Of a stretch of DNA of 64,000 nt, positions 1 to 38,354 are shown piece after piece. A program made the position numbers and the translations under genes. The notes beneath the pieces are model-generated. The model searched no databases and was not told where the DNA came from. It saw only the letters and a program-made list of their open reading frames with translations. The stretch is from Candidatus Heimdallarchaeota archaeon LC_3 (GTDB lineage: Archaea; Asgardarchaeota; Heimdallarchaeia; Hodarchaeales; LC-3), in assembly GCA_001940645.1 (NCBI GenBank), contig MDVS01000001.1:1-64000 (forward strand). Reading direction: 5' to 3'. The first letter of the stretch is position 1. Each line of letters opens with the position of its first letter.

Positions 1-289
1 TATTCTTAATTACAGCTTTACCTAATTCAAAAATAACTTTACTCATCCGCTCATAAACATAAGGGACTTTAGCTGGATTAAAAGCTTTTTTACAATGATA
101 ACAATAATAACGACGGATTTCACCTGCTCGTGTCCAATACGAACCCCAAGTAGTTACAGCAACAGGTATAATATCACAAAAAGGACAGTTTAAATCTTCA
201 TGTGAGAGCTGAAGAACTAAATTTTCTGTTAATGGAATTTTAGTAATGGGATTTTGATTTTGCTTTTCTAAATAAGTAGTAACAGTCAT
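1..289 (-). CDS. N-terminal fragment of a zinc-ribbon transposase-like protein (cut by window edge)
   Basis: The minus strand is open from an ATG at 289 down to the window edge without a stop (about 96 codons). The translation has two Cys pairs, CPFC near residue 36 and CYHC near residue 67, separated by a basic, aromatic stretch and followed by KKAFNPAK. This is the layout of the N-terminal zinc ribbon of several insertion-sequence transposases, where it helps bind DNA. The catalytic part would lie outside the window, so the family cannot be named. A zinc-ribbon regulator is the alternative. It is not the same protein as the transposase at 37092-38294, which lacks this domain. Confidence 0.5.
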   Translation of the reverse strand, partial: MTVTTYLEKQNQNPITKIPLTENLVLQLSHEDLNCPFCDIIPVAVTTWGSYWTRAGEIRRYYCYHCKKAFNPAKVPYVYERMSKVIFELGKAVIKN

Positions 290-539
290 AATGACTAAAA
301 GAGCTAAGCAATGAGTATATAAATATTAGTATGACCAACGTATAGCAGAGGAATTATTATGTCAAAGTTTTAAAAAATTTAAGAACAAGATCCAACACTA
401 TATATGAATTCAAAAAAAGTTTAAGAATCCTACAATTTTCAGGTTATCTCTGTTTTTTGTTAAAAGAGATAAATGATATTTTTCAGAAGTCCAATATATT
501 TTGTCTATCAATGAAAAATAGAGAATTAAAGGGATTTCT

Positions 540-1736
540 ATGACTATTTTATTCTATGATTCTAAATCTAATAATTCTATTAATGCAAGTTATTTTGGAC
601 TATCTTTAGGTCTTTCAATATTGTTATTAAACAACTACTTGAATAACATTCCTATCAATGAATCGCCTATTGATATTGCGACAAAATTATTCTCGATAAC
701 ATTCTTATCATCAATTTTGTCAAGTTTCTTCATAATAGTTAGATTAGACAAATTTCTTATACCGAAATTTGTAAAATATTTAAAAAAATTTGAAAATAAA
801 GAATGGATGAGCTCTAATGAAGTTTTACTGACACCATATTTAAAGGAATTTTATAACACAATCACTTCAACTATCATAATAGTGATTCTTTTTATAATTC
901 TAACTTTAGCGAATTTCGTATCAGAAGATTCTTTATTTTTTGTAGAAAAAGAAATTACTTTAGCTATTTTGACTATAGCAATATTTTTATTACTGATAGC
1001 TCTTTTTTACCGAATAAAGAATGATAATTATAAATTAGATTACGTTGCGATCTTCTATCGACTAAAAAAAGATCCACACATTGATAAAGACCATAAGGAC
1101 GATGATGAGTCCGAAAGTCTCGGTAACAGATTAATCGAAATTAATTTTGATTTAATGAACAACAACTGGTCTGGTGTAAAGAATAATATAGAAATAATAA
1201 AAAGTAAGGCTAATAGTTTATTTTCTGATTGTTTTTTCCAATCAGATAGAAAAGCTTTTTATATTTTAGAATTTGAAAAATTGAAGAATATATCAGAACA
1301 AGATGACATACTTTTAAAGGAATATTTTATAACAATTAACAATCCATTAAATGGAAAAGTAAATGGATCTTTGAATACAAGATATCATCATCTAAAGATC
1401 CATGGACTTTTTTATGTTTATGAAGAGGGTTCTGATTTATTAAAAAAATATAATGAGATTATTAGTAAATCTATAGAGTTTAATGAAGAACATCAAATCG
1501 TCTTGAACCGTTTAAAGAGTCAGATTTATCCAGGAGACCTACAAGATCTAAATCCTGGTACTATCAAGAAAAAAAAAGAAATTCTGAATAATTTAAAGAA
1601 TGAATTCATTAATGATACGAAATTAAGAACTCTAAATAATTGTCTTATTGAATTATTTAACGATTTTTTTCAAATATTCCCTTTAAGAGATGAAATACAG
1701 GAAAAAATAAAGAAATTGGATAAAGAAAGTATGTAA
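540..1736 (+). CDS. Four-helix membrane protein with cytoplasmic C-terminal domain, function unknown
   Basis: I do not recognise the family. The first 165 residues hold about four hydrophobic stretches (roughly 18-35, 50-67, 110-128 and 139-157). A polar, lysine-rich domain of about 230 residues with predicted helical character follows (for example residues 185-215 and 330-398). There are no cysteine pairs, nucleotide-binding motifs or catalytic signatures that I can see. A purine-rich AAAGGGA lies about 7 bases upstream of the ATG, which supports this start. The neighbours are a transposase fragment and an AbrB-type regulator, so the gene sits in an accessory region and may be cargo of a mobile element. 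Confidence 0.6.
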   Translation: MTILFYDSKSNNSINASYFGLSLGLSILLLNNYLNNIPINESPIDIATKLFSITFLSSILSSFFIIVRLDKFLIPKFVKYLKKFENKEWMSSNEVLLTPYLKEFYNTITSTIIIVILFIILTLANFVSEDSLFFVEKEITLAILTIAIFLLLIALFYRIKNDNYKLDYVAIFYRLKKDPHIDKDHKDDDESESLGNRLIEINFDLMNNNWSGVKNNIEIIKSKANSLFSDCFFQSDRKAFYILEFEKLKNISEQDDILLKEYFITINNPLNGKVNGSLNTRYHHLKIHGLFYVYEEGSDLLKKYNEIISKSIEFNEEHQIVLNRLKSQIYPGDLQDLNPGTIKKKKEILNNLKNEFINDTKLRTLNNCLIELFNDFFQIFPLRDEIQEKIKKLDKESM

Positions 1737-1765
1737 TAAAGAGTTGATACATAATGACATTAGCA

Positions 1766-2266
1766 TCAGTCTATCATTACAAAATAATTCTCTGGATTTT
1801 TCCCTTCTTTAATAGCTTGATAGACTTCTTCGGTAATATATCTCACAGTTCTACCCCTACCGTTCTTTTTTGCATAAATTAATAAATAATTCTTCACTAC
1901 ATGATCATAAGATACTAAAAATGTGAAATGTTCCGTTCTATTGTTATAAACATCTTCAAATCGTGCTGATTCTTTATGCAGATCAGTTTTATCAAAAAAT
2001 ACAGGAATTAATTTTTGTTTTGGTCCCGATTGTCTCACATATTTTATTACACTTTTATATTTTCGGGGTTTTTCTGGAGTAATTAGGATATTATTTATCC
2101 CTACTTCTATCTGTATAGATGTTCCTTCCGCAAATCCCATATTAGATACTAGACTATCTAACAATATCCCTAGAGAATTCCCTACTTTCCTTATAGCCTT
2201 ACTTGTAAAGATTTCCAGAGTTCTACCTTTTTCTAGACCTTTATTTTGTGTTGTTGCTTCAGCCAT
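1766..2266 (-). CDS. AbrB/SpoVT/MazE-type DNA-binding protein with C-terminal extension
   Basis: Residues about 22-68 fit the AbrB swapped-hairpin fold: AIRKVGNSLGI, then a hydrophobic segment with GFAEG, then a short strand reading NNILITP. Such proteins act as dimeric transcription regulators or as antitoxins. The remaining 95 residues are not typical of small AbrB proteins and have no family I recognise. They contain basic and aromatic stretches (YVRQSGPKQ, KKNGRGRTVRY). The upstream DNA, on the side where the promoter must be, carries two clusters of the palindrome GTTATAAC at 15-base spacing, plausible operators for this dimeric regulator. No toxin gene is adjacent, since the gene at 540-1736 converges on it. 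Confidence 0.7.
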   Translation of the reverse strand: MAEATTQNKGLEKGRTLEIFTSKAIRKVGNSLGILLDSLVSNMGFAEGTSIQIEVGINNILITPEKPRKYKSVIKYVRQSGPKQKLIPVFFDKTDLHKESARFEDVYNNRTEHFTFLVSYDHVVKNYLLIYAKKNGRGRTVRYITEEVYQAIKEGKNPENYFVMID

Positions 2267-2362
2267 TTATCTCAGTATATAATAAAAATGTAGCTTAAAT
2301 AATAAAAGAGATTTTATTTTTTTAATAAAGATTTTTTTATTCTTTTTTTTCTTTATAGTTAT

Positions 2363-2400
2363 GTTATAACAAGATCTGTTATAACGTATTCTGTTATAAC
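2363..2400. repeat. Three GTTATAAC palindromes at exact 15-base spacing
   Basis: The palindrome GTTATAAC starts at 2363, 2378 and 2393. The last two copies share the longer core TCTGTTATAAC. The cluster lies about 100 bases upstream of the AbrB-type gene start and could be its operator. Exact periodic spacing is also typical of replication iterons. Confidence 0.75.
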
Positions 2401-2581
2401 ACAATAGGATCTAATCACCTATAATATTATTTCTCTCTCTGATTACTGATCCAAGCTTATCTCGACCAATTTTTCGGTGTTGATCTTCCTACCTGGAATT
2501 CTATTTTGAGTTGTCAAGACTTTTTTCCTACTCAAATACTCTTTCTTCAACCAAAATAAAGAAGAATCAAGTTTTTAATCT

Positions 2582-2634
2582 GTTATAACCTATTCTGTTA
2601 TAACGACATCTATTATAACGCATTCTGTTATAAC
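2582..2634. repeat. Four GTTATAAC palindromes (one variant) at exact 15-base spacing
   Basis: Copies start at 2582, 2597, 2612 and 2627, and the third reads ATTATAAC. The shared unit is roughly CTGTTATAAC followed by five bases, often ATT-rich. Both clusters end in GTTATAACACAATA, which suggests that the whole cluster was duplicated. Confidence 0.75.
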
Positions 2635-3095
2635 ACAATAAGAGAGAATTTTTCAATAAGTATCATTCTAATTTTATTTCCTTTTATCATATTGAAAATA
2701 ATATTTAATATTATCGGAGGGGAGGGAGAGCACCAATTCTAAAAGAAAAGCTAATACTTGTTTGGAGGGGAGTCAAACTTACATATTTTGTTTATTGGAT
2801 TTCTAACAATCCATGAATTGATGCTAATAACATCATAACTTATTCTCCTTTTAAGTCTTTCGATTCCTTGTTATTAACACAGTACAAATAATATTATATC
2901 TATCATTTTCAGTTTACTTACAAGAATACTACCATTCCTTACCATATTTTCGATTTTCAAATCATTCAATTCTGCTTCGAATTACAGAGTAGAAACTATT
3001 TCTGGCTGCTTTTAACCCAATTCCGTTAATTTATTGATGTAGCACTATTTTACGATCATAATTCATCAGAAAAGGTAGTGAATTGAATCTGAAAG

Positions 3096-3103
3096 TATTT
3101 AAG
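3096..3103 (+). promoter_or_regulatory. Candidate TATA box for the gene at 3150
   Basis: The sequence TATTTAAG, preceded by the purine run GAAAG that could act as a BRE, lies about 50 bases upstream of the ATG at 3150. A ribosome binding site GGTG at 3140-3143 lies 6 bases before that ATG. Confidence 0.45.
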
Positions 3104-3149
3104 CTCCCAACTTTCATATTAGTATAGCTGACTATCTTTGGTGAATATC

Positions 3150-3452
3150 ATGCTTCGACTTTACAACAATTCTTTTGATACTACTAAAAAATCTTTTCGT
3201 GATCTTATTCAGGACATTGAAATTCCTTCTAATTGTATTGATAAAATTAATATTCTTTTGGATTGGTATGGATCACTTAAATCCTGTAATAAATACGAAA
3301 TCATTGCTGGATGTTTGTTCATAACTCTTCAAGAACACCACTCCAATATGTCCTTAGGATATATACTTGATTTTTTCCTCAAAAAAGGTATCCAATTCTC
3401 TCTTGGGAATATTGAATATGTTATTATGTTTATTTCCCAATTTCCTATGTAG
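3150..3452 (+). CDS. Small helical protein of unknown function
   Basis: About 100 residues, rich in helix-forming segments, with three scattered cysteines and no clear motif. The frame extends upstream to TTG and GTG codons at 3138 and 3141. I chose the ATG at 3150 because GGTG sits 6 bases before it. The stretch around residues 50-80 (an alternating hydrophobic helix followed by a Gly-Tyr-containing turn and another helix) faintly recalls a cyclin-fold helix of TFB, but this is too weak to name. It stands alone, convergent with the winged-helix gene at 3481-3726. Confidence 0.5.
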   Translation: MLRLYNNSFDTTKKSFRDLIQDIEIPSNCIDKINILLDWYGSLKSCNKYEIIAGCLFITLQEHHSNMSLGYILDFFLKKGIQFSLGNIEYVIMFISQFPM

Positions 3453-3480
3453 CTTACGTTAATTGGCATAAAAGATTGTT

Positions 3481-3726
3481 TCATTCAAATGAATAATAAA
3501 AAGATCTTAAATCCCTCAAATCTGGATATTTTGTTATCTTTTCTGATTCCATTAACAATTTCATTCCATACCGAACACTTCTCAGTGATAATCCAGTTTT
3601 AATTGCAATTTCTTCTGATTTCAGAGGTTCTCTGCTTTCTTTTAATATTTCTTCGATAATTAACGCTATTTGGCTTTGCTTATCTTTACTATCCTCAATT
3701 GACTTTTTTCCAGTAAATTTAGTCAT
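3481..3726 (-). CDS. Small winged-helix DNA-binding protein, copy 1
   Basis: An 81-residue protein with a winged helix-turn-helix: helix 2 and recognition helix in EEIAIKTGLSLRSVRYGMK (about residues 40-58), then a wing with KITKYPDLRDLRSFYY. This suits a small dimeric transcription regulator. It is nearly identical to the protein at 4500-4745, differing at about seven residues, and more distantly related to the protein at 52044-52352. The SD is GGAG, upstream of an ATG reading MTKF. The promoter region carries a 22-base inverted repeat, AGTATTT/AAATACT, overlapping the TATA-like TATTTAAATA, so autoregulation is likely. Confidence 0.75.
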   Translation of the reverse strand: MTKFTGKKSIEDSKDKQSQIALIIEEILKESREPLKSEEIAIKTGLSLRSVRYGMKLLMESEKITKYPDLRDLRSFYYSFE

Positions 3727-3760
3727 ATTATTTGCTCCGTTGAATAATTATATCATAATA

Positions 3761-3782
3761 AGTATTTTCTTATTTAAATACT
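3761..3782. promoter_or_regulatory. Palindromic operator over the promoter of winged-helix copy 1
   Basis: The arms AGTATTT and AAATACT are separated by 8 bases. The unit covers TATTTAAATA, the likely TATA box on the minus strand. An equivalent palindrome is conserved at 4780-4801 in front of copy 2 despite spacer changes, which suggests selection or recent copying. Confidence 0.55.
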
Positions 3783-3853
3783 AATAAATATTTTTACTAA
3801 GGATTCATTTTATTGATTATTAGTTTCCTTATCCCATTTATTGATTTTTAAAA

Positions 3854-4381
3854 TTACAAATAAAAGAAAATAACCGGTATCATGAATATTTTTGTCCACA
3901 GGATTGATATAACAATCGAATATTCTTTTTTTAGCACTTCAGGATAATATTTTCTTCTTGCTAGAACATTCGTGATATAATTGGTAAAAATGAAAGTTGT
4001 TATTATTAAAAATATTACAATAAAAGTTCCAGAATATTGAATTAATGTTCCTTCATAATAGTCTTGTGAATTCCTTTGAAACAATAGCAAATAAGAAATC
4101 CAGACAATTAACAAAAAAATAATTGATAAAGTCGGTTCACGTATTGAATAAAAAGTTTTTAGTAAAACAGAAATGAATAAACTGGTGAAAAAGCTATAAA
4201 AAATAAAAATGAAAAATAAAATAGACGTTGGAAGATGAAATGATGATGTGAATATGTACATAAAGAAAAGGGTAAATAAGAGACTTAGACAGATATTTAT
4301 AAAGAAGTTTACGTGATCTAACGTAGTAGCTTTATTAACTGATTGTATCTTCAGAGTGATGGTCATTAGAAGATTTATCAA
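3854..4381 (-). CDS. Multi-pass membrane protein between the two winged-helix copies, function unknown
   Basis: The 175-residue protein is almost entirely hydrophobic, with about five transmembrane segments (roughly 28-48, 52-73, 82-103, 117-139 and 152-174). No catalytic motif is visible. It lies exactly between the two near-identical winged-helix genes, all on the minus strand, so a regulator-membrane-regulator module is plausible. It could be an integral membrane partner or cargo whose expression the regulators control. The similarity to known families is not strong enough to name one. Confidence 0.55.
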   Translation of the reverse strand: MINLLMTITLKIQSVNKATTLDHVNFFINICLSLLFTLFFMYIFTSSFHLPTSILFFIFIFYSFFTSLFISVLLKTFYSIREPTLSIIFLLIVWISYLLLFQRNSQDYYEGTLIQYSGTFIVIFLIITTFIFTNYITNVLARRKYYPEVLKKEYSIVISILWTKIFMIPVIFFYL

Positions 4382-4499
4382 TCCGAAACTAATAATTATA
4401 AGTCCTTCTCAAAAAAAAATGTCTCAATTTTTACATTTAATAATATTTGTAGCTATAAGAAGTTCTTGGATTCTATTTTAATTAGCAGAAAAACTTGTC

Positions 4500-4745
4500 T
4501 CATTGAAGCGTATAATAAAAAGATCGTAAATCTCTCAAATCTGGATATTTTGTTATCTTTTCTGATTCCATTAACAATTTCATTCCATACCGAACACTTC
4601 TCAGTGATAATCCAGTTTTAATTACAATTTCTTCTGATTTCAGGGGTTCTCTGCTTTCTTTTAGTATTTCTTCTATAATTAATGCTATTTGGCTTTGTTT
4701 ATCTTTGCTATCATCAACTGACTTTTTCCCAATAAATTTAGTCAT
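4500..4745 (-). CDS. Small winged-helix DNA-binding protein, copy 2
   Basis: This 81-residue protein is almost the same as the one at 3481-3726. The substitutions I can see are at positions 5, 10, 11, 43 and the last three residues. The helix-turn-helix core (LSLRSVRYGMKLL) and the wing are unchanged, so both copies probably recognise the same DNA. The upstream GGAG ribosome site and the AGTATTT/AAATACT palindrome are kept. It is the first gene of the minus-strand run that continues into the membrane gene at 3854-4381. Confidence 0.75.
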   Translation of the reverse strand: MTKFIGKKSVDDSKDKQSQIALIIEEILKESREPLKSEEIVIKTGLSLRSVRYGMKLLMESEKITKYPDLRDLRSFYYTLQ

Positions 4746-4779
4746 TTTATTTGCTCCTTTGAATAATTATATCCTAATT

Positions 4780-4801
4780 AGTATTTTATTATTTAAATAC
4801 T
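4780..4801. promoter_or_regulatory. Palindromic operator over the promoter of winged-helix copy 2
   Basis: The same arms AGTATTT and AAATACT as at 3761-3782, with an 8-base spacer that differs in three positions. It overlaps a TATA-like TATTTAAATA reading toward the gene at 4500-4745. Confidence 0.55.
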
Positions 4802-4897
4802 CACAAATATTTTTACTAAGGACTCAACTCATGCTAATAATAAACAATTAGTGACTAAAAAAGGATTAAGTGAAAATTTTTACCACATTTCTTTCGT

Positions 4898-5002
4898 TTA
4901 TTTAATTAAAGCTTCAATTATATTTGGGGTAAGAATTTTAAGAAATTTCTCTTTAATCTCCTGATTTTCACCACCTAATGCTATCTTCATCAAAAAAGTC
5001 AT
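4898..5002 (-). CDS. 34-residue peptide with a strong ribosome binding site
   Basis: ATG at 5002, stop at 4898, translated MTFLMKIALGGENQEIKE and onward to ALIK. A perfect GGAGG lies 7 bases upstream, just after the stop codon of the preceding membrane gene, so the two are likely co-transcribed and translationally coupled. The peptide has a hydrophobic start and an amphipathic, charged middle. The function is unknown. The good ribosome site is the main reason to list it. Confidence 0.5.
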   Translation of the reverse strand: MTFLMKIALGGENQEIKEKFLKILTPNIIEALIK

Positions 5003-5019
5003 ATTTATACCTCCGAACA

Positions 5020-5265
5020 TTATTCTGTTAAGGATAGTTGATCTATTTCACTTTCCAATTCATTTATTCTTTCTAGAAGAATATTCATTGAATCTGATGT
5101 CCAATTTGCTTTGGAGTTAAAATAAATTCCAAGAAAAATGATTAAGGAAGAGAGAATTCCCAAAATAAGAAATAGACCTTTTCCATTGAGAAATGAATCC
5201 AGAAATACCCCCATCCAAAATAACACAAAAGCGGGTAAAAATGTAAGAAAAATCGCTTTAAACAA
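5020..5265 (-). CDS. Small two-helix membrane protein; natural N-terminus probably cut off by an in-frame stop
   Basis: From the TTG at 5265 the product has 81 residues: two hydrophobic segments (about 3-21 and 30-48) and a charged C-terminal helix likely to form a coiled coil (residues 60-79). No good ribosome site precedes this TTG. Further upstream in the same frame an ATG at 5340 has a proper GAGAGG site, but that frame reads 15 codons and meets TAA at 5295-5293, then continues openly into this gene. The intact gene was probably about 106 codons. Either a point mutation broke it, or the TAA is read through, or the short upstream frame is a leader peptide. Confidence 0.5.
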   Translation of the reverse strand: MFKAIFLTFLPAFVLFWMGVFLDSFLNGKGLFLILGILSSLIIFLGIYFNSKANWTSDSMNILLERINELESEIDQLSLTE

Positions 5266-5397
5266 GCTATCATCTTTTGATAATCCTTTTCTTTACCTTT
5301 TAATTTCCATTTTTTCTAAAGAACTATTATCTGTATCCATTTTATTTATTCCTCTCAAATTTAATATTATGTTAATTGTAATTCTTCCTTTCAAATT

Positions 5398-5832
5398 TTA
5401 ATCAGGATCAATAATTCTTCCCTCATTACTTAATTCTTTATATTTTAATTGGATTCTTTTTTTTAGACTGGTAGCTTTTTCTGTATTCTTAATTTTTACA
5501 TTTGATATGGACATTTCTTCTAATATAAATTCCAATTCTTTCGTTGTTTCTGCTTTATCTATCCTTGCAAGATAAGGTTCGAGCTGTTTATCGAATAATA
5601 AGTCTTTTTCAGACAATTTTCCTTCCAACAGTTTGTATTTTTGATCTTGTTTCTCTATTGTTGTAATAATGCTACCTATTAGGATAATAAATACCAATGA
5701 ACTAAATATACCCGAAAGTATTGCTAATATTGAATAAAATATTTCATTATTACCTATGTTAATAATCACTAAGATAATAAAAGTAATTATAATTGATACT
5801 ATCCATAAATTGAACAAATTCCGCATAGTCAT
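5398..5832 (-). CDS. Small two-helix membrane protein with cytoplasmic helical tail
   Basis: A 144-residue protein. Residues about 8-26 and 30-56 are hydrophobic, and the rest is a charged, helical tail (residues 60-144) with coiled-coil-like spacing of Leu and Ile. No known family. Its layout (two N-terminal helices and a helical tail) resembles the neighbouring protein at 5020-5265, so the two could form a complex. It belongs to a minus-strand run of small genes in the accessory region. Confidence 0.55.
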   Translation of the reverse strand: MTMRNLFNLWIVSIIITFIILVIINIGNNEIFYSILAILSGIFSSLVFIILIGSIITTIEKQDQKYKLLEGKLSEKDLLFDKQLEPYLARIDKAETTKELEFILEEMSISNVKIKNTEKATSLKKRIQLKYKELSNEGRIIDPD

Positions 5833-5900
5833 AATTAATCTCTAATCCTAATTTAATTTTACTCAACTTATTATTATTTTCCAGCTATAATAAAAGAATA

Positions 5901-6221
5901 TTATTCAGGATCAACATCTAAATTAGATCCATTACTCTCATTTTTCGTTACAAATGTTCTTACTACCTGATTTCTGAACTCTTTGAATATATCCAAAACA
6001 AATTTGTATTCAAATGGCGAAAAAATAAACTCCCGTTGTTGTTCTTGATTCTTACTATACGATACCTTTATTTTCAACGACTTCTGATTATGTAAAACTG
6101 TTTTTGCACTTGGAACCTCATAATTTTCTAGTTTAATCACCGAAATCCAAACGCTATAAGCTCCATCCTGTTTTCTTCTCCATGTGGAATATGGTAAATC
6201 ATTCTCCAAATAATAATACAA
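5901..6221 (-). CDS. Hypothetical 106-residue soluble protein at a recombination junction
   Basis: No recognised domain. The sequence alternates strands and short turns (YSVWISVIKLENY, SLKIKVSYSK, EFIFSPFEYKFVLDIF), suggesting a small beta-rich fold followed by a helix. It ends in an acidic tail. Its 5' end coincides with the point where the truncated helicase on the other strand begins to resemble its family (about 6220-6235). The gene may therefore have been brought in by the event that removed the helicase N-terminus, or its first codons may be fused from the junction. Confidence 0.45.
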   Translation of the reverse strand: MYYYLENDLPYSTWRRKQDGAYSVWISVIKLENYEVPSAKTVLHNQKSLKIKVSYSKNQEQQREFIFSPFEYKFVLDIFKEFRNQVVRTFVTKNESNGSNLDVDPE

Positions 6222-6229
6222 TTCGTCTA

Positions 6230-7876
6230 TTTGTTGGGCATACCTATTCCGGTATTCTTGGAACTCATCTCTTTATGCTATTACAACGATTAAAGCGTAT
6301 TATTGGTAAGTTCCAGATAATTGGTGCTTCTGCAACAGTTGGTAACCCTAAAGAATTTTTTAAACGACTTACAGGACAAGAAATTGTTGTTATTTATTGT
6401 AAAGATAACGTAGCAAAACGTCCAACAATAGATATCTTGCTTGTAAGTCCGACCATTGATAAAAACGATAACTATAATGTCTCAGGATTAGTAAGAGACC
6501 TAGTATCTAATGAAAACGATCACACTTTGCTAGTGTTTCGCAATTCTCAACTATCATCTGAATATACATTTAGGGTATTATCGGATGAGTTAGGAAAACA
6601 AGTAGAGATCCATCGCGGAGGATTAAACAAGACTCATAGACAAAATGTTGAATCGAAATTACGTGATGGCGAGATTAAAGCAGTTGTTTGCACCAGTTCT
6701 TTAGAATTAGGAATAGATGTTGGGGATATTTCTGGTGTAATAACTCCGCTAGTCCCTATTAATAGTCTTTATCAAAGAATTGGTCGTGCAGGCAGAAGAA
6801 ATAGACCAGCATTAGCGATACTGGAGTTAAGTAATGATGTGGTCAGTGAATATTATATCAGACATCCTAAAGAGTATTTTACTGATGTAACACCTATTAC
6901 GTTTGAGACCAATAATCGGAGAATAATTTTTGATCACTTGCGGTTAGCAAAATATGAAAGACCATTTGAAAAGAATGAATTCAGAGAATATGACGATATA
7001 CTAGAATTAATTGTAAAAAAGGAGAGAAGAGAACAAGAGGAAAAGGATTCCTCAGAGGAACAGACCACTGGAACAAAGAATATCCCAGTATTTTCACTAC
7101 GAACATCGGAAGGATCAATGGAAATAAAATATTTTAACAAGATTATTGCTACCAGAGCCTTTCCATATGCATTCTGGGAATATTTTCCCGAAGCAAGACG
7201 ATTCATTGCTGGAAACAAGTTTAAGGTAGTGGATGTCAAGAAAACAACACGATTCAATAGACCACATTATGTTGCTCAAGTAGAACGTATTGTTGGGGAG
7301 GATTACACTGTTATAAGACCGATCAGACTAGAATCATATGAATTTATTGGTGAACCCAGTCCTCTAAACAGATTAGCAAAAACAGAGGTACTGGTGGGTA
7401 AGGGAAAGATCATTTATACCATTAAAGGAGCTGAAACAAGACAGGGAAGATCAAAAACAAGTAGTAAAATTCATTTCAGTCATTATTCTTATGTCCATAG
7501 AACTATTATCTTGGAATTAACTTTTGAAGATGAGATCGGATTGGTAGTTTTACATACTCTACGCCACTTGTTACGAGCAGCAGTCCAGATGAAATTAGGA
7601 TTACAATCAGAATATTTCTTCATACAAAATTCGCAAATGAAAAAGAAGTTAGTGTTATATGATGCCTCAGAAGGGGGAAATGGGAGTATTCTAACAATAA
7701 TGAAGAGAGTTAAGTATATTTTTGAACGAATGCATCAAATTATTGCTTCTTGTGAATGCTCTAATCCATATGGATGTCCAAAATGCACTTTTGATCTAAA
7801 ATGTCGGAATCCCAAATGGGATTTAGATAAAGAGGCTACTATAAATTTTTTGAGGAAATTAAGAAACAACAGATAG
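6230..7876 (+). pseudogene. C-terminal half of an MrfA/YprA-type DExH helicase (5' truncated)
   Basis: The product begins inside the first RecA domain. GHTYSGILGTH corresponds to the DEhHtYrGifGsH region, but the two acidic residues of the Walker B motif are missing (it reads F-V-G-H-T-Y), and Walker A is absent altogether. What remains is motif III (GASAT), the second RecA domain with the ending RIGRAGRR, and a C-terminal DUF1998-like domain with the four-cysteine cluster CEC...GCPKC...KC near the end. Without Walker A/B it cannot hydrolyse ATP. An ATG at 6182 opens the same frame, but the residues before about 6224 do not look like helicase. A short separate protein using the C-terminal domain alone is possible but less likely. 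Confidence 0.75.
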
Positions 7877-11817: not shown

Positions 11818-12132
11818 ATGAGTAGTCAACAACTTTTAATAAATTTTATGATTGGTTTTTATTTTGTCTCTATTCTTCTTGCATTAATTTATGGTATTAA
11901 GTGGAATAAAGTCTTTAAACGTGTTAAAAAGTTTAGAAAGAATCATTTTTCTAATCCTTCTTATAAATCTCAAGTTACTAATATGTTTTCTTATCATTAT
12001 GCTAAATCCATGAGAGTAACCCGACCTAAGAAGCGATTCTATATTCCAGCTACTAAATTATATCCTCAGCTTCAATTAGTTAAAGATTACGGTATCAAAC
12101 GTAAATATCGCGACTCAACGGGAGAGAAATAA
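11818..12132 (+). CDS. Small membrane-anchored basic protein, first gene of the clamp operon
   Basis: 104 residues. One hydrophobic segment at about residues 8-26, then a strongly basic cytoplasmic tail (KRVKKFRKN, RVTRPKKRF, GIKRKYR) that could contact nucleic acid or acidic lipids. No family was recognised. The next reading frame begins within the last codons of this gene, so it is translationally linked to the winged-helix-like gene and, through it, to the PCNA-like gene. A role tethering DNA or the clamp to the membrane is conceivable, but that is inference from context only. Confidence 0.6.
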   Translation: MSSQQLLINFMIGFYFVSILLALIYGIKWNKVFKRVKKFRKNHFSNPSYKSQVTNMFSYHYAKSMRVTRPKKRFYIPATKLYPQLQLVKDYGIKRKYRDSTGEK

Positions 12133-12386
12133 TTATTAAATTTCAAGATTTTCTAGTTGGTTATGTTTTCAAAAGATTACAGACCGCTTGTAGCTTTGAG
12201 GAGTTAATCAATCCTCTCTTAGCTAAGAATATAATTTCACATGATATTTTCAAGTCTTTATTTGATGTTCTCTTAGAGAAACAGATCATTGAAGAAAAAT
12301 TCGTCATGAATAATGTTTTCTTCTATTCCATTAGAGATAATGAGATCGAGACCTTTGAATCTTTGGAGAATACTATTAATGAGTAA
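12132..12386 (+). CDS. Winged-helix-like small protein, probable ATT start
   Basis: An open frame of 84 codons fills the gap between two co-directional genes and ends in TAA overlapping the ATG of the next gene (ATGAGTAA), the usual sign of coupled translation. The translation looks like a real protein: FEELINPLLAKNIISHDIFKSLFDVLLEKQII, then a strand pair (EKFVMNNVFFYSI), matching a winged helix. No ATG, GTG or TTG occurs before codon 59. GGGAG lies 7 bases before ATT 12132, so ATT (or the ATA or ATT either side) is the likely start. A -1 frameshift from the preceding gene is the other explanation. Confidence 0.55.
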   Translation: MIKFQDFLVGYVFKRLQTACSFEELINPLLAKNIISHDIFKSLFDVLLEKQIIEEKFVMNNVFFYSIRDNEIETFESLENTINE

Positions 12387-13557
12387 ATCCTTGTTATCTT
12401 ATGTCAAGAAAGTTGATTATCTTGATATGTTTGAATCCCAACTCAAAGAAATAAGACAATCAAAGGTTAATATCTCTGAAATTTATGATAAAATCATTCA
12501 ACTTGAAGAAAGTTTGCTTAAGAAATATGGAGTTATCCCCTCTTTTGCTCAAGAACTATCAGAATTAAAAACAACTATTGGACAAGAGTTAGATAATAAA
12601 AAAGATTTAGCTACCTTAACTATTTCGCTTGACAATTTTAAGATCCTTGCTAAATTTATTAAATCTTTATCCTTATTAGATGAATATAAAATATTACTTG
12701 AAATAAACCCCGATCAAGTGAACTTCACTATTTTAGATTCTTCCGAAAGATATTTTTTCCAGACATCTATAGACAAGTCTTTTTTCAACTGTTATAACAC
12801 ACCCCACTCATATTATTATATAGTGACCCTCTCAGAATTTAAGACAATCCTTGAAAGAATCCCTCAGAATAACAAAAATTTCTATTCATTTTCTTTTATT
12901 GGTTCAGATCAAGGTCTTTTTATTCACTACGAATTAATTTATAATCATGGACCACAGCCAGACTTACTAAAAATCAAAGTTAATACAAATTGCCTTGTAA
13001 TTAAAAAAGACAGCGAAGAAATCCAGAAAATCTTAAAAATGGAAAATAGATTCAAGCCAGGTAGTAAAGACTTTATTCAAAAAATTGGATTTTCAAAAAC
13101 AGAGATTCTTTATAACTTTCTTTCATACTGTAATTCTTTCAAAAACGATTATTATGATTTTATATCTATTAATGTTTCTTTTCCTAAAACTTTGACCTTA
13201 TCCGACATGAAAGATCCAACTGATGTAAGCACTACTCAAGAATATTCTATTGAAACACTAACTGATAAAGAAATCACAGCAGAATATTACCAATCTTACT
13301 TCAAATTTATGGGGAATATCGGATTAATCTTCCTTACTAAGTCAGGGAAGAAAATTACTAATAGGCTTGAAAATTATAATATTTATTTTGACAAAGATAA
13401 TAATTTGAAATTAGATTTCATCACGAATTACTTTTCTGGGGAATTTATTATTGCTCCTAATATCATAGACAACGAAGATGATTTAGAAGACAATTCACAA
13501 GAAGAAGCAGTACAAATATTAAATTCAGACATTAAGGAAGAGGGAGATTCTAACTAA
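12379..13557 (+). CDS. Divergent PCNA-like sliding clamp with N-terminal helical extension
   Basis: Residues about 75-370 follow the two-domain plan of PCNA. In the first half FKILAKFIKSLS is followed by ILDSSERYFFQTSIDKSFFNCY, matching the PCNA pattern MDSSHVxLvxLxLxxexFxxY, and then VTLSEFKTILERI matches the second PCNA helix (VNLxxxxKILK). In the second half SYFKFMGNIG leads to NNLKLDFITNYFSGEFIIAPNI, matching the C-terminal LxLxfxi...LxyyLAPrI. About 75 residues of charged helix precede the clamp, and an acidic tail follows. Clamps encircle DNA and tether polymerases and nucleases. I chose ATG 12379, overlapping the stop of the gene before; the frame also opens at 12313. The next gene overlaps its stop by one base. 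This is far from standard archaeal PCNA, so it is probably not the only clamp in the cell. Confidence 0.65.
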   Translation: MSKSLLSYVKKVDYLDMFESQLKEIRQSKVNISEIYDKIIQLEESLLKKYGVIPSFAQELSELKTTIGQELDNKKDLATLTISLDNFKILAKFIKSLSLLDEYKILLEINPDQVNFTILDSSERYFFQTSIDKSFFNCYNTPHSYYYIVTLSEFKTILERIPQNNKNFYSFSFIGSDQGLFIHYELIYNHGPQPDLLKIKVNTNCLVIKKDSEEIQKILKMENRFKPGSKDFIQKIGFSKTEILYNFLSYCNSFKNDYYDFISINVSFPKTLTLSDMKDPTDVSTTQEYSIETLTDKEITAEYYQSYFKFMGNIGLIFLTKSGKKITNRLENYNIYFDKDNNLKLDFITNYFSGEFIIAPNIIDNEDDLEDNSQEEAVQILNSDIKEEGDSN

Positions 13558-14152
13558 TGGCTTATACAAGAGAAAGATTTAATCAAAATATCCACCAGCT
13601 AAAAGCATTAAATCAAGAATTGGATACTTTGAAATCAGATCCTATTATTAGAAAACAAAATCCTTCTAAAATAGCTAATCTTACTTATGAAATAACTGAA
13701 TTAACTAAAGAAAATGAAATTATTGAAAATCTTATATCTACTCAATTAAGTAAAGACAAACAACAAGATGAAAACAAATTACAATTCAATATTCCAGACA
13801 TTACTTTTACTTTTTCCCAAGAATTTTCTAAATCACTTATCAGACTTTTTACTATTCTTAATAAATTCCACTCACTTAATAGATTATATTTTTCCAAAAA
13901 CGAATTGACCATTATTAACAACGAAGATAATGAAAATACTGATTTAGCTTTAAAAATAACTTTTCCAAATGAATTATTTGCTCAATACCACGTTAAAGAT
14001 TCTTTAGGTATCATAGTAGATACTCCCAATCATTCGAGTATTCACTAACAGAAATTTCAATAAGACAAAGTGAATTTATGTTTATCAAAACGACCTTCAA
14101 AGAATTTGACCTTGAAATAAGTTTAACATCAGTAGATGAAGATTTGTTTTAA
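13557..14152 (+). pseudogene. Half-length PCNA-like protein with coiled-coil N-terminus and a -1 frameshift
   Basis: The first 75 residues are a charged helix (coiled coil). Then FSKSLIRLFTILNKF, NELTIINNE and LKITFPNELFAQYHV match the first half of a PCNA N-terminal domain, as in the neighbouring gene. The frame stops at 14048 with a short tail (163 residues). Reading one base back around 14034-14037 gives a further 38 codons ending at 14152 (EYSLTEISIRQ, FKEFDLEISL), which look like the rest of the same domain. So the gene is either disrupted by a one-base loss or uses a programmed -1 shift. Even when joined it encodes only one of the two clamp domains and would need a partner, perhaps the neighbouring clamp. 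Confidence 0.5.
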
Positions 14153-18667: not shown

Positions 18668-19645
18668 CTAAAATTTATAAGATTTAATCACAGCTTCTGT
18701 TACTTTGTATGGATCGGGTAAATAATCCATCTCTAATGTAAATGGGAAAGGAGTATCCATTCCTGCTACTCGTAGAATCGGAGATTCTAGATATTCAATA
18801 AATTTTTCTGCAATAGTTGCTGATATTTCTGCTCCATATCCCAATGTTTTCGGAGCTTCATATACTACAACAACTCTTCCAGTTTTCTTTACTGATTTTT
18901 CAATAGCTTCTAAATCATATGGCATTAAAGTCCGCAAATCAACTATTTCACAACTTATGTTGTGTTCTTCTTGGCAAATATTAGCAGCTTCAAGACACAC
19001 TGGAATCATAGCTCCGTAGGCAATTATTGTAACATCAGTTCCTTCTCTTGGTATAGCAGCTTTACCTATAGGTACGGTATAATCTCCTTCAGGTACTTCT
19101 TGCTTGAAAGCTCTATAAATGGATTTAGGTTCTAAAAATAAAACAGGATCGGGCTCTCGTAGTGCTGAAGTTAATAATCCTTTAGTATCATAAGGATTAC
19201 TTGGTATTACTACTTTTATTCCAGCATTATGGACAAAAAATGCTTCAATACTCTGAGAATGATAGTGACTTCCTTTAATGCCTCCTCCATAGGGTGCTCT
19301 TACAACAACAGGACAAGAATACTCTCCCCCTGTTCTATATCGGAATTTTGCTAACTCTGACACCATTTGATCAGCTGCTGGCCATATAAAATCTGCGAAC
19401 TGAATTTCTGCGACTGGTTTTAATCCGTATAATCCTAATCCTATTGCAAATCCAATGATTCCTGATTCATTTAGTGGTGTGTCAATAATTCGATTCATTC
19501 CGAATTCATCTATTAATCCTTCAGTTGCTCTAAATACTCCTCCATTCCTTCCAATATCTTCTCCTAAGACCAATATATCTTTATTTCTTCTCATTTCTTC
19601 AAATAATGTTAAGTTTACAGCTTGAACGATTGTTAATTCTGTCAT
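18668..19645 (-). CDS. 2-oxoacid dehydrogenase E1 component, beta subunit
   Basis: The partner of E1 alpha in ThDP-dependent decarboxylation of a 2-oxoacid. The protein shows the transketolase-pyrimidine domain start (VQAVNLTLFEEMRRN, then LGEDIGRNGGVFRAT), EIQFADFIWPAADQ, and the C-terminal transketolase domain with DLRTLMPYDLEAI and GRVVVVYEAPKTLGYGAEI. The family length is about 325. The frame extends to a TTG at 19660, but GGAGGT sits 7 bases before the ATG at 19645, so I start there. It lies between E1 alpha and E2 with very short gaps. Confidence 0.94.
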   Translation of the reverse strand: MTELTIVQAVNLTLFEEMRRNKDILVLGEDIGRNGGVFRATEGLIDEFGMNRIIDTPLNESGIIGFAIGLGLYGLKPVAEIQFADFIWPAADQMVSELAKFRYRTGGEYSCPVVVRAPYGGGIKGSHYHSQSIEAFFVHNAGIKVVIPSNPYDTKGLLTSALREPDPVLFLEPKSIYRAFKQEVPEGDYTVPIGKAAIPREGTDVTIIAYGAMIPVCLEAANICQEEHNISCEIVDLRTLMPYDLEAIEKSVKKTGRVVVVYEAPKTLGYGAEISATIAEKFIEYLESPILRVAGMDTPFPFTLEMDYLPDPYKVTEAVIKSYKF

Positions 19646-19665
19646 CACATTTACCTCCAATATTT

Positions 19666-34876: not shown

Positions 34877-36961
34877 TTGAATGATGAAAAAATATGTAAA
34901 GAAAAGGAAAAAATAGCTCAGTCTATGGCTGAGATCGACAATCCTACCATCAAAGAAATGATTGAGACTGCTGAAGCATTCTTTGATGTTGCAGCAAATT
35001 GCTATGATAGAATCGGTGACCGAAAAAATTCAGCTAAAAATTTCACATTAGCGGGAGAATTTTTCATGGTAATTGATGAAAAAGATCGTGCAGCAGAATG
35101 TTATGGCAAAGCCGTATTAAGAAATTTAATGGCAGATGAACTTGAAGCTGCCAGAGTCTTGTTAGACAAAGGTAAAGATTATGGCGACCATTTTGATACC
35201 TTTCACTTTCGATTAGCTTCTGATTCATTTTCTAGACGAATAACTGACGAATTCGATTTATTAAATGATGAATCTTATTATCAATTTTCAGATGAAGCAG
35301 ATAAGTCTGACCAAGATTTGCAACTTTTTGATGATGTGCCAACTTCTTATTTACTTGAACAGGCCGAATTAGAAGAAATTTTAATTGAACAAAACAAAGA
35401 AGTTTTAGTTTCTGATTCAAAATACTCATCCACTCCTGCAATTGGAATCACTAAAGGATATAAAATTAGTTCTAAAATCGATTCAGAAAAACGAGGTAGA
35501 GTTGTTGACACTCTTATTTCTTCTGCAAAAAAAGAAGTAGAGAAAAGAATCATCTCTAATGTAACAGCCAAATCACCTATTGGAATGCCTGTTAAATTAT
35601 TAAAAAGAAATCTAATATTTTCGGCAGATAAATCATTATTAGAAATGAATTCACTCGATAATGACATTTTGCATATTGAAGAAAATCTAGAAGATATTGA
35701 ATTAACTGATTTTCCTGTTTCTTTTCTAAAAACCCCTGAACAAGAATTCGAAGAAACAATAGAGTTATCAGAAGGAATTTCTAAAAATAAGGATTCTTCA
35801 ATTGAGGATTCTGATTTACAGAAAAATAAACAAGTAATTTCAAATGATTTTTTAGATTATAGTTTGCTCCCTGATCAAATGCAAGATGATACAAGCGAAG
35901 GAATTGAAATTGATGATTTATTAACTCAAGTTTCTGATTTTACTTCTTTCAGTGAGATTATAAATCAGGAGTCAAATGATCTTGAAAATATAGTGATCAA
36001 AGATGTTATTCCACTAAATTGGCAGATAAAAGGTATAAAAACTTCAAAAGACATGGTGTTATTGAGTCAAGAAATTGATTCAGAAACTGGTTCTTTAATT
36101 TTTAAATGGAAAAGAAATAGTTTACGAGCTGGTGAAAAAGCTCGGATCAAATATATTTTATCGAAAAGAGTACAAAGAACTATTATCACGGTTATTACTG
36201 ATCAAATACTTATTCAAACGTTATATTACAATATAGAAAAAAGTGAAAAAATAGGATTAATCGCAGAAATACCCTTTCAACCTTTTTCCGATTCAGAAAT
36301 AGACTTTCTTTTGATTGAAGATGTTATCCCCCCTGAACTTAAAGTTACGAATATAATTCCCCATGATTTAGCATATTTACAGTATCACACACGGGATGGA
36401 TTACTCTTTAGATGGGTCATGACTAATATTAAATCAGACATTCCATTAGATATTCAATATCATTTGATCGAAAGACCTTTAACAATTTGTTTAAATCATG
36501 TTTTCAATATAAAAGAATCTCCGGACTCTTTACTAACTCTAACAAAAATTATTGAACCTCTAATTGATGTATTAGCTCACGAATATTTGTTGTATTATCA
36601 ATTAGAAGCAAAAAATCTTCCAGAAGTTTCTATAGATATATTAGATTCATTATATCCTAAAAATGTCAGTGTGGAACTTTTAGCAAGTAATCCTTCTTGG
36701 ATGCGACCTACAATCAGAACAGAAGGTAAGAATCAAAAACGATATGAGTGGAGAAATATTGAAATTGATGGTAATAAGATAAGAAAGTTTATAATACGTG
36801 TTAGAGCAAATCAACCATTAAAATCAGTTGATCCAGACATTACAATAAAAAGATCAGGTGACGTAGCTAATTCAATAAAATCTGAGATTCAAGAAGAAAT
36901 AACTGTAAGTGAAAATGTGGATCTTAGAAAAAAAATGGGAATGTCTTTAGTACAAGAATGA
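34877..36961 (+). CDS. Large cytoplasmic protein: alpha-SNAP-like helical repeats, disordered middle, beta-sandwich C-terminus
   Basis: Residues about 20-115 form paired helices with the pattern FFDVAANCYDRIGDRKNSAKNF, FTLAGEFFMVIDEKDRAAECYGKA, resembling TPR or alpha-SNAP repeats. Residues 120-370 are acidic and low in order. The last 320 residues repeat a motif (VIKDVIPLNWQIKGI..., LLIEDVIPPELKVTNI...) followed by strands such as FKWKRNSLRAGEKARIKYIL, which look like two or more immunoglobulin-like DUF11-type domains. There is no signal peptide, so they are intracellular, an unusual place for such domains. Function unknown. The start TTG is preceded by TTTTGGTGGT. Confidence 0.6.
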   Translation: MNDEKICKEKEKIAQSMAEIDNPTIKEMIETAEAFFDVAANCYDRIGDRKNSAKNFTLAGEFFMVIDEKDRAAECYGKAVLRNLMADELEAARVLLDKGKDYGDHFDTFHFRLASDSFSRRITDEFDLLNDESYYQFSDEADKSDQDLQLFDDVPTSYLLEQAELEEILIEQNKEVLVSDSKYSSTPAIGITKGYKISSKIDSEKRGRVVDTLISSAKKEVEKRIISNVTAKSPIGMPVKLLKRNLIFSADKSLLEMNSLDNDILHIEENLEDIELTDFPVSFLKTPEQEFEETIELSEGISKNKDSSIEDSDLQKNKQVISNDFLDYSLLPDQMQDDTSEGIEIDDLLTQVSDFTSFSEIINQESNDLENIVIKDVIPLNWQIKGIKTSKDMVLLSQEIDSETGSLIFKWKRNSLRAGEKARIKYILSKRVQRTIITVITDQILIQTLYYNIEKSEKIGLIAEIPFQPFSDSEIDFLLIEDVIPPELKVTNIIPHDLAYLQYHTRDGLLFRWVMTNIKSDIPLDIQYHLIERPLTICLNHVFNIKESPDSLLTLTKIIEPLIDVLAHEYLLYYQLEAKNLPEVSIDILDSLYPKNVSVELLASNPSWMRPTIRTEGKNQKRYEWRNIEIDGNKIRKFIIRVRANQPLKSVDPDITIKRSGDVANSIKSEIQEEITVSENVDLRKKMGMSLVQE

Positions 36962-37026: not shown

Positions 37027-38354
37027 CTACAGAATTTCTTTGCTAAAAGTCATTAAATAATCCTTAAAACAATCTTAACATAGATTTTACATCATCCCGC
37101 TAAAATCCTCTTTTTAAACGATTTCATTTTTGATTTTGAATAAAAATGTTTTTTAGCCTTAGAAATATCATAATCAGTACAATAACATTCCCAAAGTTTC
37201 AAAAGGGTATAATTTATTCCTTTTTTTCGTAATTGTTCTTGATATAACCGGAATAAATAATACAAAAAATAGCTTAATTCCCAATAACATAAATTAAAGT
37301 CCTGCTTCCCAGAATAGCAATCTTCAAACCCAAAGAACTTCTTTATTTTCGCATGAAGGTTTTCTACCTCCCAATGATCACTCCAACGTTTACTAAACGT
37401 CTGAATAGTCATCTTCACCAGATTCGTTAAATAATATTTGATATTAGAACTATTGCCTTGACGAATAGCAAAAGCCTTACAACGGCCATATATTAGTGTA
37501 TTAATCTCTTTCTCTTGATAATAAATCTTTGTTTTTGTAACAGGGTTTGTAATGAATCGCCATTTAGCATTAGAAACAAATCCCTTTTCAAGAGTTTGTA
37601 GTTTTCCAAAAAGAAAATATTGGGTGTTTTTTTTTGTTCCCATCACAAAATTTACCTTGAATTTTCCAAAAAGTTTGTAAAGCTCCTCACAAAGATACCA
37701 GGAATCTGTTGTACAGCATAGTTGTTTTGGGCGTGCTCCTTTTAGTAATAATTGGGTTAGTTGTTTCGTAAAGAGTTGTTTTGCTAGGTTTATTTTTGTT
37801 TTAAAGCCTTCAAGGTGTCCTTGGTTGCGTTGTAAAAATTTTTTAGGTAAATATTGAATAAAATCATAATTAAAATATGATAGAGAAGTAATCCAGCAGT
37901 CTACTATGATATTCTCAAACTGGGTGCCCCCTCCAACATGGTTATGTTGATAGGCAGCACCATGTACATCTTTTCCATATCTCCTCGTTGAAGTGTCGTC
38001 AAGAGAAACTACTATTCGTTCTCGACCATTAATGTTACTAAATCGTCCAGAAAGGTCTTCTTTCAGAATTTGAAGGTAAGGACGACTTCGAAGAAGCGAA
38101 TAACGTATCTTTCGTGCAGAAATATTATCTGTTCCTGTTCGTTCTAAGCTTTGAATACTTTTTCTACGACCAGCAATTAAATGGTCGCATAATGCTGCCA
38201 TGTTTATATTTTGGCTGCCATAGCTCGAAGGGAATGTTTTTAAACTCTGATGAATGAATTCTCGTATGGGAGGGAAGAACATGGTTGTAATCACTAATTC
38301 TTCTATGTTTTTCTCTCCCTTCTAAATTTTATGAATTTTGTCGGAATACAGAGT
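37027..38354 (-). mobile_element. Insertion sequence carrying the DDE transposase
   Basis: The ends are uncertain. The left (37027-37058, ACAGAATTTC...AAAAGTCATTAAAT) and the right, read inverted (about 38354 to 38325, CTGTATTCC...AAAATTCATAAA), share an imperfect terminal inverted repeat of about 25 bases with gaps. No target duplication was found. The element interrupts the space between two same-strand helical-repeat genes (34877 and 38440). Confidence 0.4.
37092..38294 (-). CDS. DDE-type transposase (IS4/IS701-like)
   Basis: A full-length transposase of about 400 residues. The candidate catalytic triad is Asp in VVSLDDTSTRRYG (near residue 98), Asp in CCTTDSWYLCEEL (near 190), and Glu in WSDHWEVENLHAKIKKFFGFEDC (near 330), the latter with the W-x(2)-E-x-h-K-x-G pattern of IS4/IS701 relatives. 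The frame is intact, so it may be active. The start is GTG 38294 or ATG 38282. The family assignment is from motif spacing and is approximate. Confidence 0.78.
   Translation of the reverse strand: MITTMFFPPIREFIHQSLKTFPSSYGSQNINMAALCDHLIAGRRKSIQSLERTGTDNISARKIRYSLLRSRPYLQILKEDLSGRFSNINGRERIVVSLDDTSTRRYGKDVHGAAYQHNHVGGGTQFENIIVDCWITSLSYFNYDFIQYLPKKFLQRNQGHLEGFKTKINLAKQLFTKQLTQLLLKGARPKQLCCTTDSWYLCEELYKLFGKFKVNFVMGTKKNTQYFLFGKLQTLEKGFVSNAKWRFITNPVTKTKIYYQEKEINTLIYGRCKAFAIRQGNSSNIKYYLTNLVKMTIQTFSKRWSDHWEVENLHAKIKKFFGFEDCYSGKQDFNLCYWELSYFLYYLFRLYQEQLRKKGINYTLLKLWECYCTDYDISKAKKHFYSKSKMKSFKKRILAG

Follow-up and report, generated by a model that had tools for sequence, protein, structure and literature searches.

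The stretch analyzed here comprises the first 64,000 nucleotides of contig MDVS01000001.1 of Candidatus Heimdallarchaeota archaeon LC_3; it is called the window, and positions are counted over its whole length. Four open reading frames (ORFs) follow one another on its + strand, encoding a basic protein of 104 amino acids (aa), a winged-helix-like (wHTH) protein of 84 aa, a protein named clamp1, and the product of gene 2. Judged by sequence comparison, clamp1 holds as a far-diverged relative of PCNA within the PCNA/DNA clamp superfamily. The cluster is regarded here as a real and new, helix-extended variant of the known PCNA clamp, whose function we infer. Its features are as follows.

11818..12132, + strand: small basic protein, 104 aa, first gene of the cluster (ORF)
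12132..12386, + strand: winged-helix-like protein (wHTH), 84 aa (ORF; Pfam DUF4364, below cut-off)
12379..13557, + strand: clamp1, 392 aa (ORF; profile, alignment, phylum-wide search)
13557..14048, + strand: gene 2, 163 aa, with residues 2-74 helical, followed by the putative start of one PCNA-like domain (ORF, model, profile)
14021..14152, + strand: 43 codons plus stop with a strand-like pattern, in a different frame; may continue the gene 2 domain (translated separately, not joined)

Successive ORFs overlap by 1 base (if the wHTH ORF begins at ATT), 8 bases and 1 base. The clamp1 ORF overlaps the stop of the wHTH ORF by 8 bases. The final base of clamp1 is the first of gene 2, a one-base overlap that the first-pass annotation of this DNA had described. 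Since the genes overlap, clamp1 and gene 2 are probably co-expressed.

Relationship of clamp1 to PCNA

Three parts are distinguished in clamp1: (i) a predicted helical extension (residues 1-78), (ii) a two-domain PCNA-like clamp (residues 79-365), and (iii) an acidic tail (residues 366-392). In a comparison with a profile of 46 distinct PCNA ORFs from Asgard-phylum loci, which include the two best matches of clamp1, residues 80-166 align with profile positions 3-88 and residues 258-365 with positions 153-252, in the right order. The whole protein scores 30.2 bits, and the best of 3,000 shuffles of clamp1 reaches 13.7 (an earlier shuffle set, 3,000 each of clamp1 and gene 2, peaks at 12.6). When the two matched PCNAs are removed from the profile (44 sequences), clamp1 scores 30.8 bits and the best shuffle 13.8. 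Taken alone, domain 1 scores 28.1 bits against shuffles of up to 10.9, and domain 2 scores 12.5 bits against shuffles of up to 11.8, a narrow margin; in neither case do any of 3,000 shuffles reach the score. Because both domains beat all shuffles and stand in the right order, clamp1 is assigned to the clamp superfamily, and the two-domain order of PCNA that had been claimed for the ORF at 12379-13557 is confirmed.

With the whole single clamp1 sequence, hhalign spans residues 80-368 at a probability of 82% (local) or 92% (global); with the clamp part only, the local alignment holds domain 1 only (52%), and the global probability is 89%. A clamp1 search of 227 Asgard-phylum genomes yielded 19 matches in 18 genomes at E up to 0.1. 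Ordinary PCNA genes of 267 aa give the two best (E 3.3e-5 and 6.3e-5 per genome), and the remaining 17 range from E 0.002 to 0.09. Three of these, in G123, G126 and G127 (E 0.002-0.014), were inspected by eye and rejected as relatives, all being leucine-rich-repeat proteins.

The divergence of clamp1 from standard archaeal PCNA, also noted at first pass, is borne out by an identity of 14-22% to eight PCNAs and by a position below Pfam detection: neither PCNA model (PF00705/PF02747; PCNA_N/PCNA_C) matches at E up to 1, and no family scores over its cut-off. The sole Pfam match is Rad9 (PF04139; E 0.019, 14.9 bits against a cut-off of 25, residues 90-141). In the 227 genomes, the Rad9 model matches 150 at E up to 0.1 and 13 over cut-off, and in the rows compared its matches coincide with ordinary PCNA genes. 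A Rad9/9-1-1 identity of clamp1 was dropped, as the model is not specific in the Asgard phylum.

Sequence comparison with PDB chains gives no match for clamp1 at E up to 10, and scanning GTDB contigs with clamp1 produced no relative. A word-based search of 5.8 billion proteins, in which distant relatives could be missed, found only clamp1 itself and P0002, a fragment of 220 aa that is 96% identical over 51% of the query. Three IMG/VR scans, which reach close relatives only, gave no clamp1 relative, and a viral origin was set aside.

The AlphaFold model of clamp1, built from two sequences, has a predicted local distance difference test score (pLDDT) of 31. It does place helices ahead of the clamp, as had been proposed, at a pLDDT of only 25-43. 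With this low-confidence model, Foldseek returned 612 matches at E up to 10, none with E < 0.001. Sliding-clamp PDB entries make up 46 of the 50 best of these 612 rows (best E 0.026), and TM-scores among the rows listed are weak (query <= 0.17, target <= 0.32). The fold check yields no confident match and counts as weak. That the PCNA resemblance arose by chance in a helical, AT-rich protein would fit the lack of any Pfam family over cut-off and the poor model; it is very improbable given a whole-protein score far above that of any shuffle, two domains that each exceed their own shuffles, and two PCNA genes at the top of the phylum-wide search.

Toward the C-terminus, the clamp1 motif IIAPN occupies the position of PCNA's LAPR, which only hints at PIP-box (PCNA-interacting-protein box) binding. 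Over the last 200 residues, clamp1 differs from the P0002 strain at 9 of 200 positions, with p 0.06 for conservative changes; the absence of stops there is uninformative, with a chance of 0.59. P0002 departs abruptly from clamp1 before Q193 and so has a different beginning, and the idea that its start is a frameshifted copy of the window was not supported.

Gene 2 and the Tail in Another Frame

The second gene had been described as having a helical start and half a clamp. The helical part stands well, as the first ~70 residues are modeled as helices (block pLDDT 75-94; later blocks 32-55). The remainder is suggestive of the first half of a PCNA domain: against PCNA, 11 of 3,000 shuffles match or exceed its score, a number that falls to 1 of 3,000 with clamp1 in the profile. 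For P0004, the figures are 34 and 28 of 3,000 (without and with clamp1). As a whole protein, gene 2 is not significant against the PCNA profile (5.0 bits), and a fold search with its model gave no clamp in the 50 rows listed, whose proteins are unrelated, helical ones among them (best E 0.58). The further claim that the two genes have similar helical starts is not supported, as the fronts of clamp1 and gene 2 are not detectably alike; their similarity is not significant.

The gene 2 ORF stops inside its domain, where the second helix of a PCNA domain should begin, and clamp-like, strand-patterned sequence resumes in another frame up to 14152. The chance of 43 open codons at the local base composition is ~0.023, assuming independent bases and for a stretch chosen after the fact. 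In the word-based search, gene 2 finds itself and P0004 only (184 aa, 89% over 96%). The two differ at 14 of 152 residues, which is not significantly conservative (p 0.21), and the end of P0004 differs from gene 2 after I152. P0002 and P0004 come from close strains, and their breakpoints may be real differences or assembly errors.

Upstream Genes and Surroundings of the Cluster

The 104-aa protein agrees with its first description as a small basic membrane protein: it has a single hydrophobic stretch near the N-terminus (residues ~6-24; best 19-residue hydropathy 2.49) and 22 K/R against 3 D/E; no Pfam family matches it at E up to 1. About 48 bases upstream of its gene lies CTTATATA, which is TATA-like by eye.

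The winged-helix call for the second gene receives weak support from Pfam, the match to DUF4364 (E 2e-4) lying below the curated cut-off. No ATG, GTG or TTG was found at the head of its frame. A possible start is the ATT at 12132, which overlaps the preceding stop TAA and lies seven bases after GGGAG; given this arrangement and the lack of a usual start, the frame may use a rare start codon or contain a sequence error. Because the protein is acidic (8 K/R against 14 D/E), simple DNA binding is not favored. Elsewhere in the window, two near-identical stretches at 2260-5400 on the minus strand carry, by eye, the same winged-helix-like segment in an otherwise gene-poor region.

Past clamp1 and gene 2, the next gene is a dehydrogenase on the opposite strand, named by reading the sequence. 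The GC (guanine plus cytosine) fraction of the cluster is 0.25-0.29, that of the window 0.31; this low value says little, since comparable fractions occur over bases 1-6000 (0.267) and in the polymerase gene (0.292). That gene, at 40356-45077 of the same window, encodes a family B DNA polymerase of 1,573 aa whose C-terminal end is rich in cysteine. A DDE transposase lies at 37092-38294 (Pfam DDE_Tnp_1 and DDE_5, both over cut-off). At 6182-7876, the C-terminal part of a helicase with an MrfA Zn-binding domain is found; it is probably a broken gene, since no N-terminal part is seen in the ~480 bases before it.

One alternative explanation is a decaying locus, a former clamp operon that is losing function. 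Such decay would account for a gene 2 that stops inside its domain with its tail in another frame, for the abrupt divergence of the close-strain proteins P0002 (before Q193) and P0004 (after I152), for the wHTH frame without a usual start codon, and for the neighboring helicase ORF without its N-terminal part. Against it, clamp1 is open over 392 codons with only 9 differences from another strain in its last 200 residues, although a stop-free stretch there has the 0.59 chance given above, and codon usage values are typical in gene 2 (0.302) and slightly low in clamp1 (0.156), with 29 other genes at 0.163-0.308. On balance, decay is rather improbable.

A look for this gene order in related genomes had been proposed at first pass; the exact order was not found in the 227 Asgard-phylum genomes, searched with clamp1, of whose 17 weaker matches three were inspected, and with the wHTH protein, which gave three matches at E 0.004-0.01. 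One other genome has a similar order of gene kinds (membrane protein, wHTH, helix-extended clamp; locus L242), with no homology demonstrated between its gene pieces and those of the window cluster.

PCNA-RFC Context in Related Genomes

A PCNA over the Pfam PCNA_N cut-off is present in 209 of the 227 genomes, and several genomes of the phylum carry more than one PCNA. The gene context was compared in 22 related genomes (loci L171-L192; PCNA_N at E up to 10), of which 21 matched and 20 did so over cut-off; G041 and G043 have no match over cut-off. At 12 of the 13 loci of a Heimdallarchaeota-related group (L171-L183), PCNA has an RFC small-subunit gene after it, and at the thirteenth (L176) the sequence after PCNA is partly masked. 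In a second group (L184-L190), RFC follows PCNA in none of the seven loci, and L191 and L192 show no PCNA by profile. The split into two groups was made after seeing the result, and the RFC gene was located by a sequence motif, with Pfam confirming RFC-type domains in the two cases tested. No RFC gene neighbors clamp1, and the RFC motif is absent from the entire window.

As regards relatedness, a 694-aa protein of the window (34877-36961) matches 54 of the 227 genomes at E up to 1e-5, with 31% identity at best. Most members of the first PCNA-RFC group are among the best matches of this protein, though not G054, and matches extend to G040 and further genomes of the second group. For the E1-beta protein (18668-19660), the top matches among the best 80 of 133 loci are archaeal: a Heimdallarchaeota metagenome-assembled genome (MAG) at 69% identity and two MAGs labeled "archaeon" (64% and 61%). 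The source of the window is taken to be an Asgard-type, Heimdallarchaeota-related archaeon remote from the genomes that were searched.

In 9 of the 13 loci (L173-L178, L180-L182), PCNA is immediately preceded by a small gene that encodes 111-114 aa. Two of these were tested against Pfam: one matches HTH_45 (E 6e-4, below cut-off), the other nothing at E 0.1. Homology of the wHTH protein of the window with the product of this small gene is not supported, at 0.4 bits against up to 10.5 in 2,000 shuffles.

Could an Asgard lineage that evolves unusually fast simply use clamp1 as its main replicative PCNA? The analysis covers only a window of the genome, two of the 22 related genomes (G041, G043) likewise lack a PCNA_N match over cut-off, and a small winged-helix-like gene also precedes PCNA in 9 of the 13 loci. 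Moreover, the identity of the G040 PCNA to seven other PCNAs is only 17-21%, a range close to that of clamp1, so identity alone decides nothing about the role of clamp1. On the other side, clamp1 misses PCNA_N even at E 1, when most genomes of the phylum have a PCNA over cut-off; no RFC gene follows it; and a helical extension and a partner gene are unlike a replicative PCNA. This explanation is considered unlikely.

Helix-Extended PCNA Paralogs in the Asgard Phylum

A search for long or duplicated PCNA-like frames, in which 15 regions were looked at, identified clamps of similar design elsewhere in the phylum. The first, L201 in G106, is a 393-aa PCNA paralog with ~110 extra N-terminal residues, deposited as EU529_13800 from a Promethearchaeota archaeon (kingdom Promethearchaeati). 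Near-full-length extended clamps occur at six loci in 5 of the 227 genomes: G106 has two, while G107, G123, G132 and G157 have one apiece; in the G107 and G157 frames, the first start codon is TTG. Six shorter or fragmentary relatives (G093, G094, G103, G116, G131, G147) score 52.6-185.8 bits with the extended-clamp profile, against 9.3-42.8 with the PCNA profile. L252 (G139) was not counted, as its score with the PCNA profile (153.7) exceeds that with the extended-clamp profile (84.5). Also left out of the counts were L197, a 424-aa PCNA-like frame on a GC-rich contig, and L202. Separately, two tandem PCNA-like genes were observed at L205 (G149:C431), one with an N-terminal cysteine-rich extension (IBR, E 0.037, below cut-off).

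The neighborhoods of the six loci vary. Both G106 copies are preceded by a winged-helix-like gene (HTH_45 E 0.006, HTH_34 E 1e-4, both below cut-off), and in one of them a hydrophobic zinc-ribbon protein stands ahead of that gene. At the G107 copy (L245; G107:C1, 696-7376), an AAA_5 ATPase, McrC, the extended clamp and GmrSD lie in a row; the ATPase is McrB-like by position, and L245 is a clamp inside a restriction island. The G157 copy adjoins a type IIG restriction-methylase. The G123 copy is preceded by a small ORF of no assigned family and the G132 copy by the contig edge.

Homology between the clamp1 extension and the G106-type extension is not supported: the profile gives -0.7 bits, with a best stretch of 3.8 (2,000 shuffles reach up to 9.8), and hhalign assigns the extension alone a probability of 0.1%. 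The G106-family profile is a weak test of this extension, since it also misses the clamp part of clamp1. As the profile does not match the clamp1 extension, the likeness is taken as a parallel in design and not as demonstrated kinship beyond the clamp superfamily.

The restriction neighbors at G107 and G157 raise the possibility that clamp1 is linked to defense or to mobile elements, working with restriction or mobile-element functions, for example in sensing or holding replicating foreign DNA. The six further genomes with only short or fragmentary copies are as expected of fast gain and loss. Opposing this, homology of the extended-clamp family to clamp1 was not shown outside the clamp part, restriction neighbors occur at only two of the six loci, PADLOC gave no match for clamp1 at E 0.01, the three IMG/VR scans for close relatives found none, and the low GC of the cluster, matched elsewhere in the window, is uninformative. 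By analogy with two of six parallel loci, a defense link may serve as a lead; as an explanation of clamp1 it is possible, if doubtful.

Proposed Role of clamp1

We favor, with modest confidence, the reading that clamp1 serves in an accessory role as a sliding-clamp subunit of PCNA type and is probably not the organism's main replicative clamp; it would come from a lineage-specific cluster in which gene 2 is a putative partner. The accessory role is suggested because related PCNAs precede RFC in 12 of 13 loci and clamp1 does not. This reading also draws on the two domains that exceed all 3,000 shuffles, the PCNA genes that are the two best phylum-wide matches, the genomes of the phylum with more than one PCNA, the N-terminal extension of other paralogs, IIAPN at the LAPR position, and the overlapping genes.

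Mechanistically, the clamp part of clamp1 would be built into a ring, either by itself or together with the host PCNA, and its helical front might dock onto that of gene 2, a step proposed from position only; gene 2 would thereby complete, cap or restrain the ring. The winged-helix protein could regulate the operon or bring the clamp to DNA. The likeliest use would be specialized repair, or the control of replication under stress or against foreign DNA. The first-pass suggestions of an element-encoded clamp, a regulator clamp or a membrane-linked replication factor are conjectures.

Several points weigh against this proposal. The analysis covers a 64-kb window in which the main PCNA of the organism was not seen. 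The PCNA-RFC context is not universal, since L184-L190 lack RFC in seven of seven loci, and divergence alone does not make clamp1 accessory, since identities among canonical PCNAs go down to 17-21%. A clamp1 model with a pLDDT of 31 offers no confident structure; the helical fronts are not detectably similar, and gene 2 is cut off inside its domain. Purifying selection is unsupported, as strain differences are not significantly conservative in either gene (p 0.06 and 0.21).

A bolder version of the accessory-clamp reading, which we consider quite improbable, is a 2+1 clamp: the two domains of clamp1 and the one of gene 2 would be tied by their helical fronts into a three-domain unit, and two such units would form a six-domain ring under a winged-helix regulator, possibly tethered to the membrane. 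If true, it would be intermediate between PCNA with its 3x2 ring and the bacterial beta clamp with its 2x3 ring.

Asgard archaea are regarded as the nearest relatives of eukaryotes known so far, and eukaryotic clamps have diversified into PCNA and 9-1-1. If the accessory reading is true, extended clamps in separate Asgard lineages would point to clamp diversification beside or before the eukaryotic event, and these clamps, some of them beside restriction systems, form a concrete gene set to test. No description of such clamps was found in the open full-text literature, as judged from titles and abstract openings among the matches listed, with most subscription papers and bioRxiv outside this scope.

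Comparison with Known Systems

With canonical PCNA, clamp1 shares the two-domain order, the C-terminal AP and the acidic tail, and its D-S-S stretch aligns with PCNA's D-[PS]-S-R. It differs in its 14-22% identity below Pfam detection, its helical extension of ~78 aa, the absence of an RFC neighbor, and a partner gene with one partial domain. Rad9 of the 9-1-1 clamp is its best Pfam match, a weak one that lies below cut-off with a model that also matches ordinary PCNAs.

The extended paralogs, such as EU529_13800, resemble clamp1 in the ~100 aa of extension that precede a clamp of two domains (365-407 aa in the sequences compared), in the acidic tail of several of them, and in the weakly supported wHTH upstream of both G106 copies. 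Unlike clamp1, none was noticed with a partial-clamp partner, the extension is not homologous by profile, and the PCNA profile gives a G106 copy a much higher score, 125 bits.

PCNA1, PCNA2 and PCNA3 of the crenarchaeal heterotrimer are full two-domain PCNAs, none of which is known to have such an extension or a partial-domain partner. This heterotrimer is composed of paralogous clamp subunits with divided tasks (PMC3504372), and clamp1 would resemble it as a paralogous clamp subunit.

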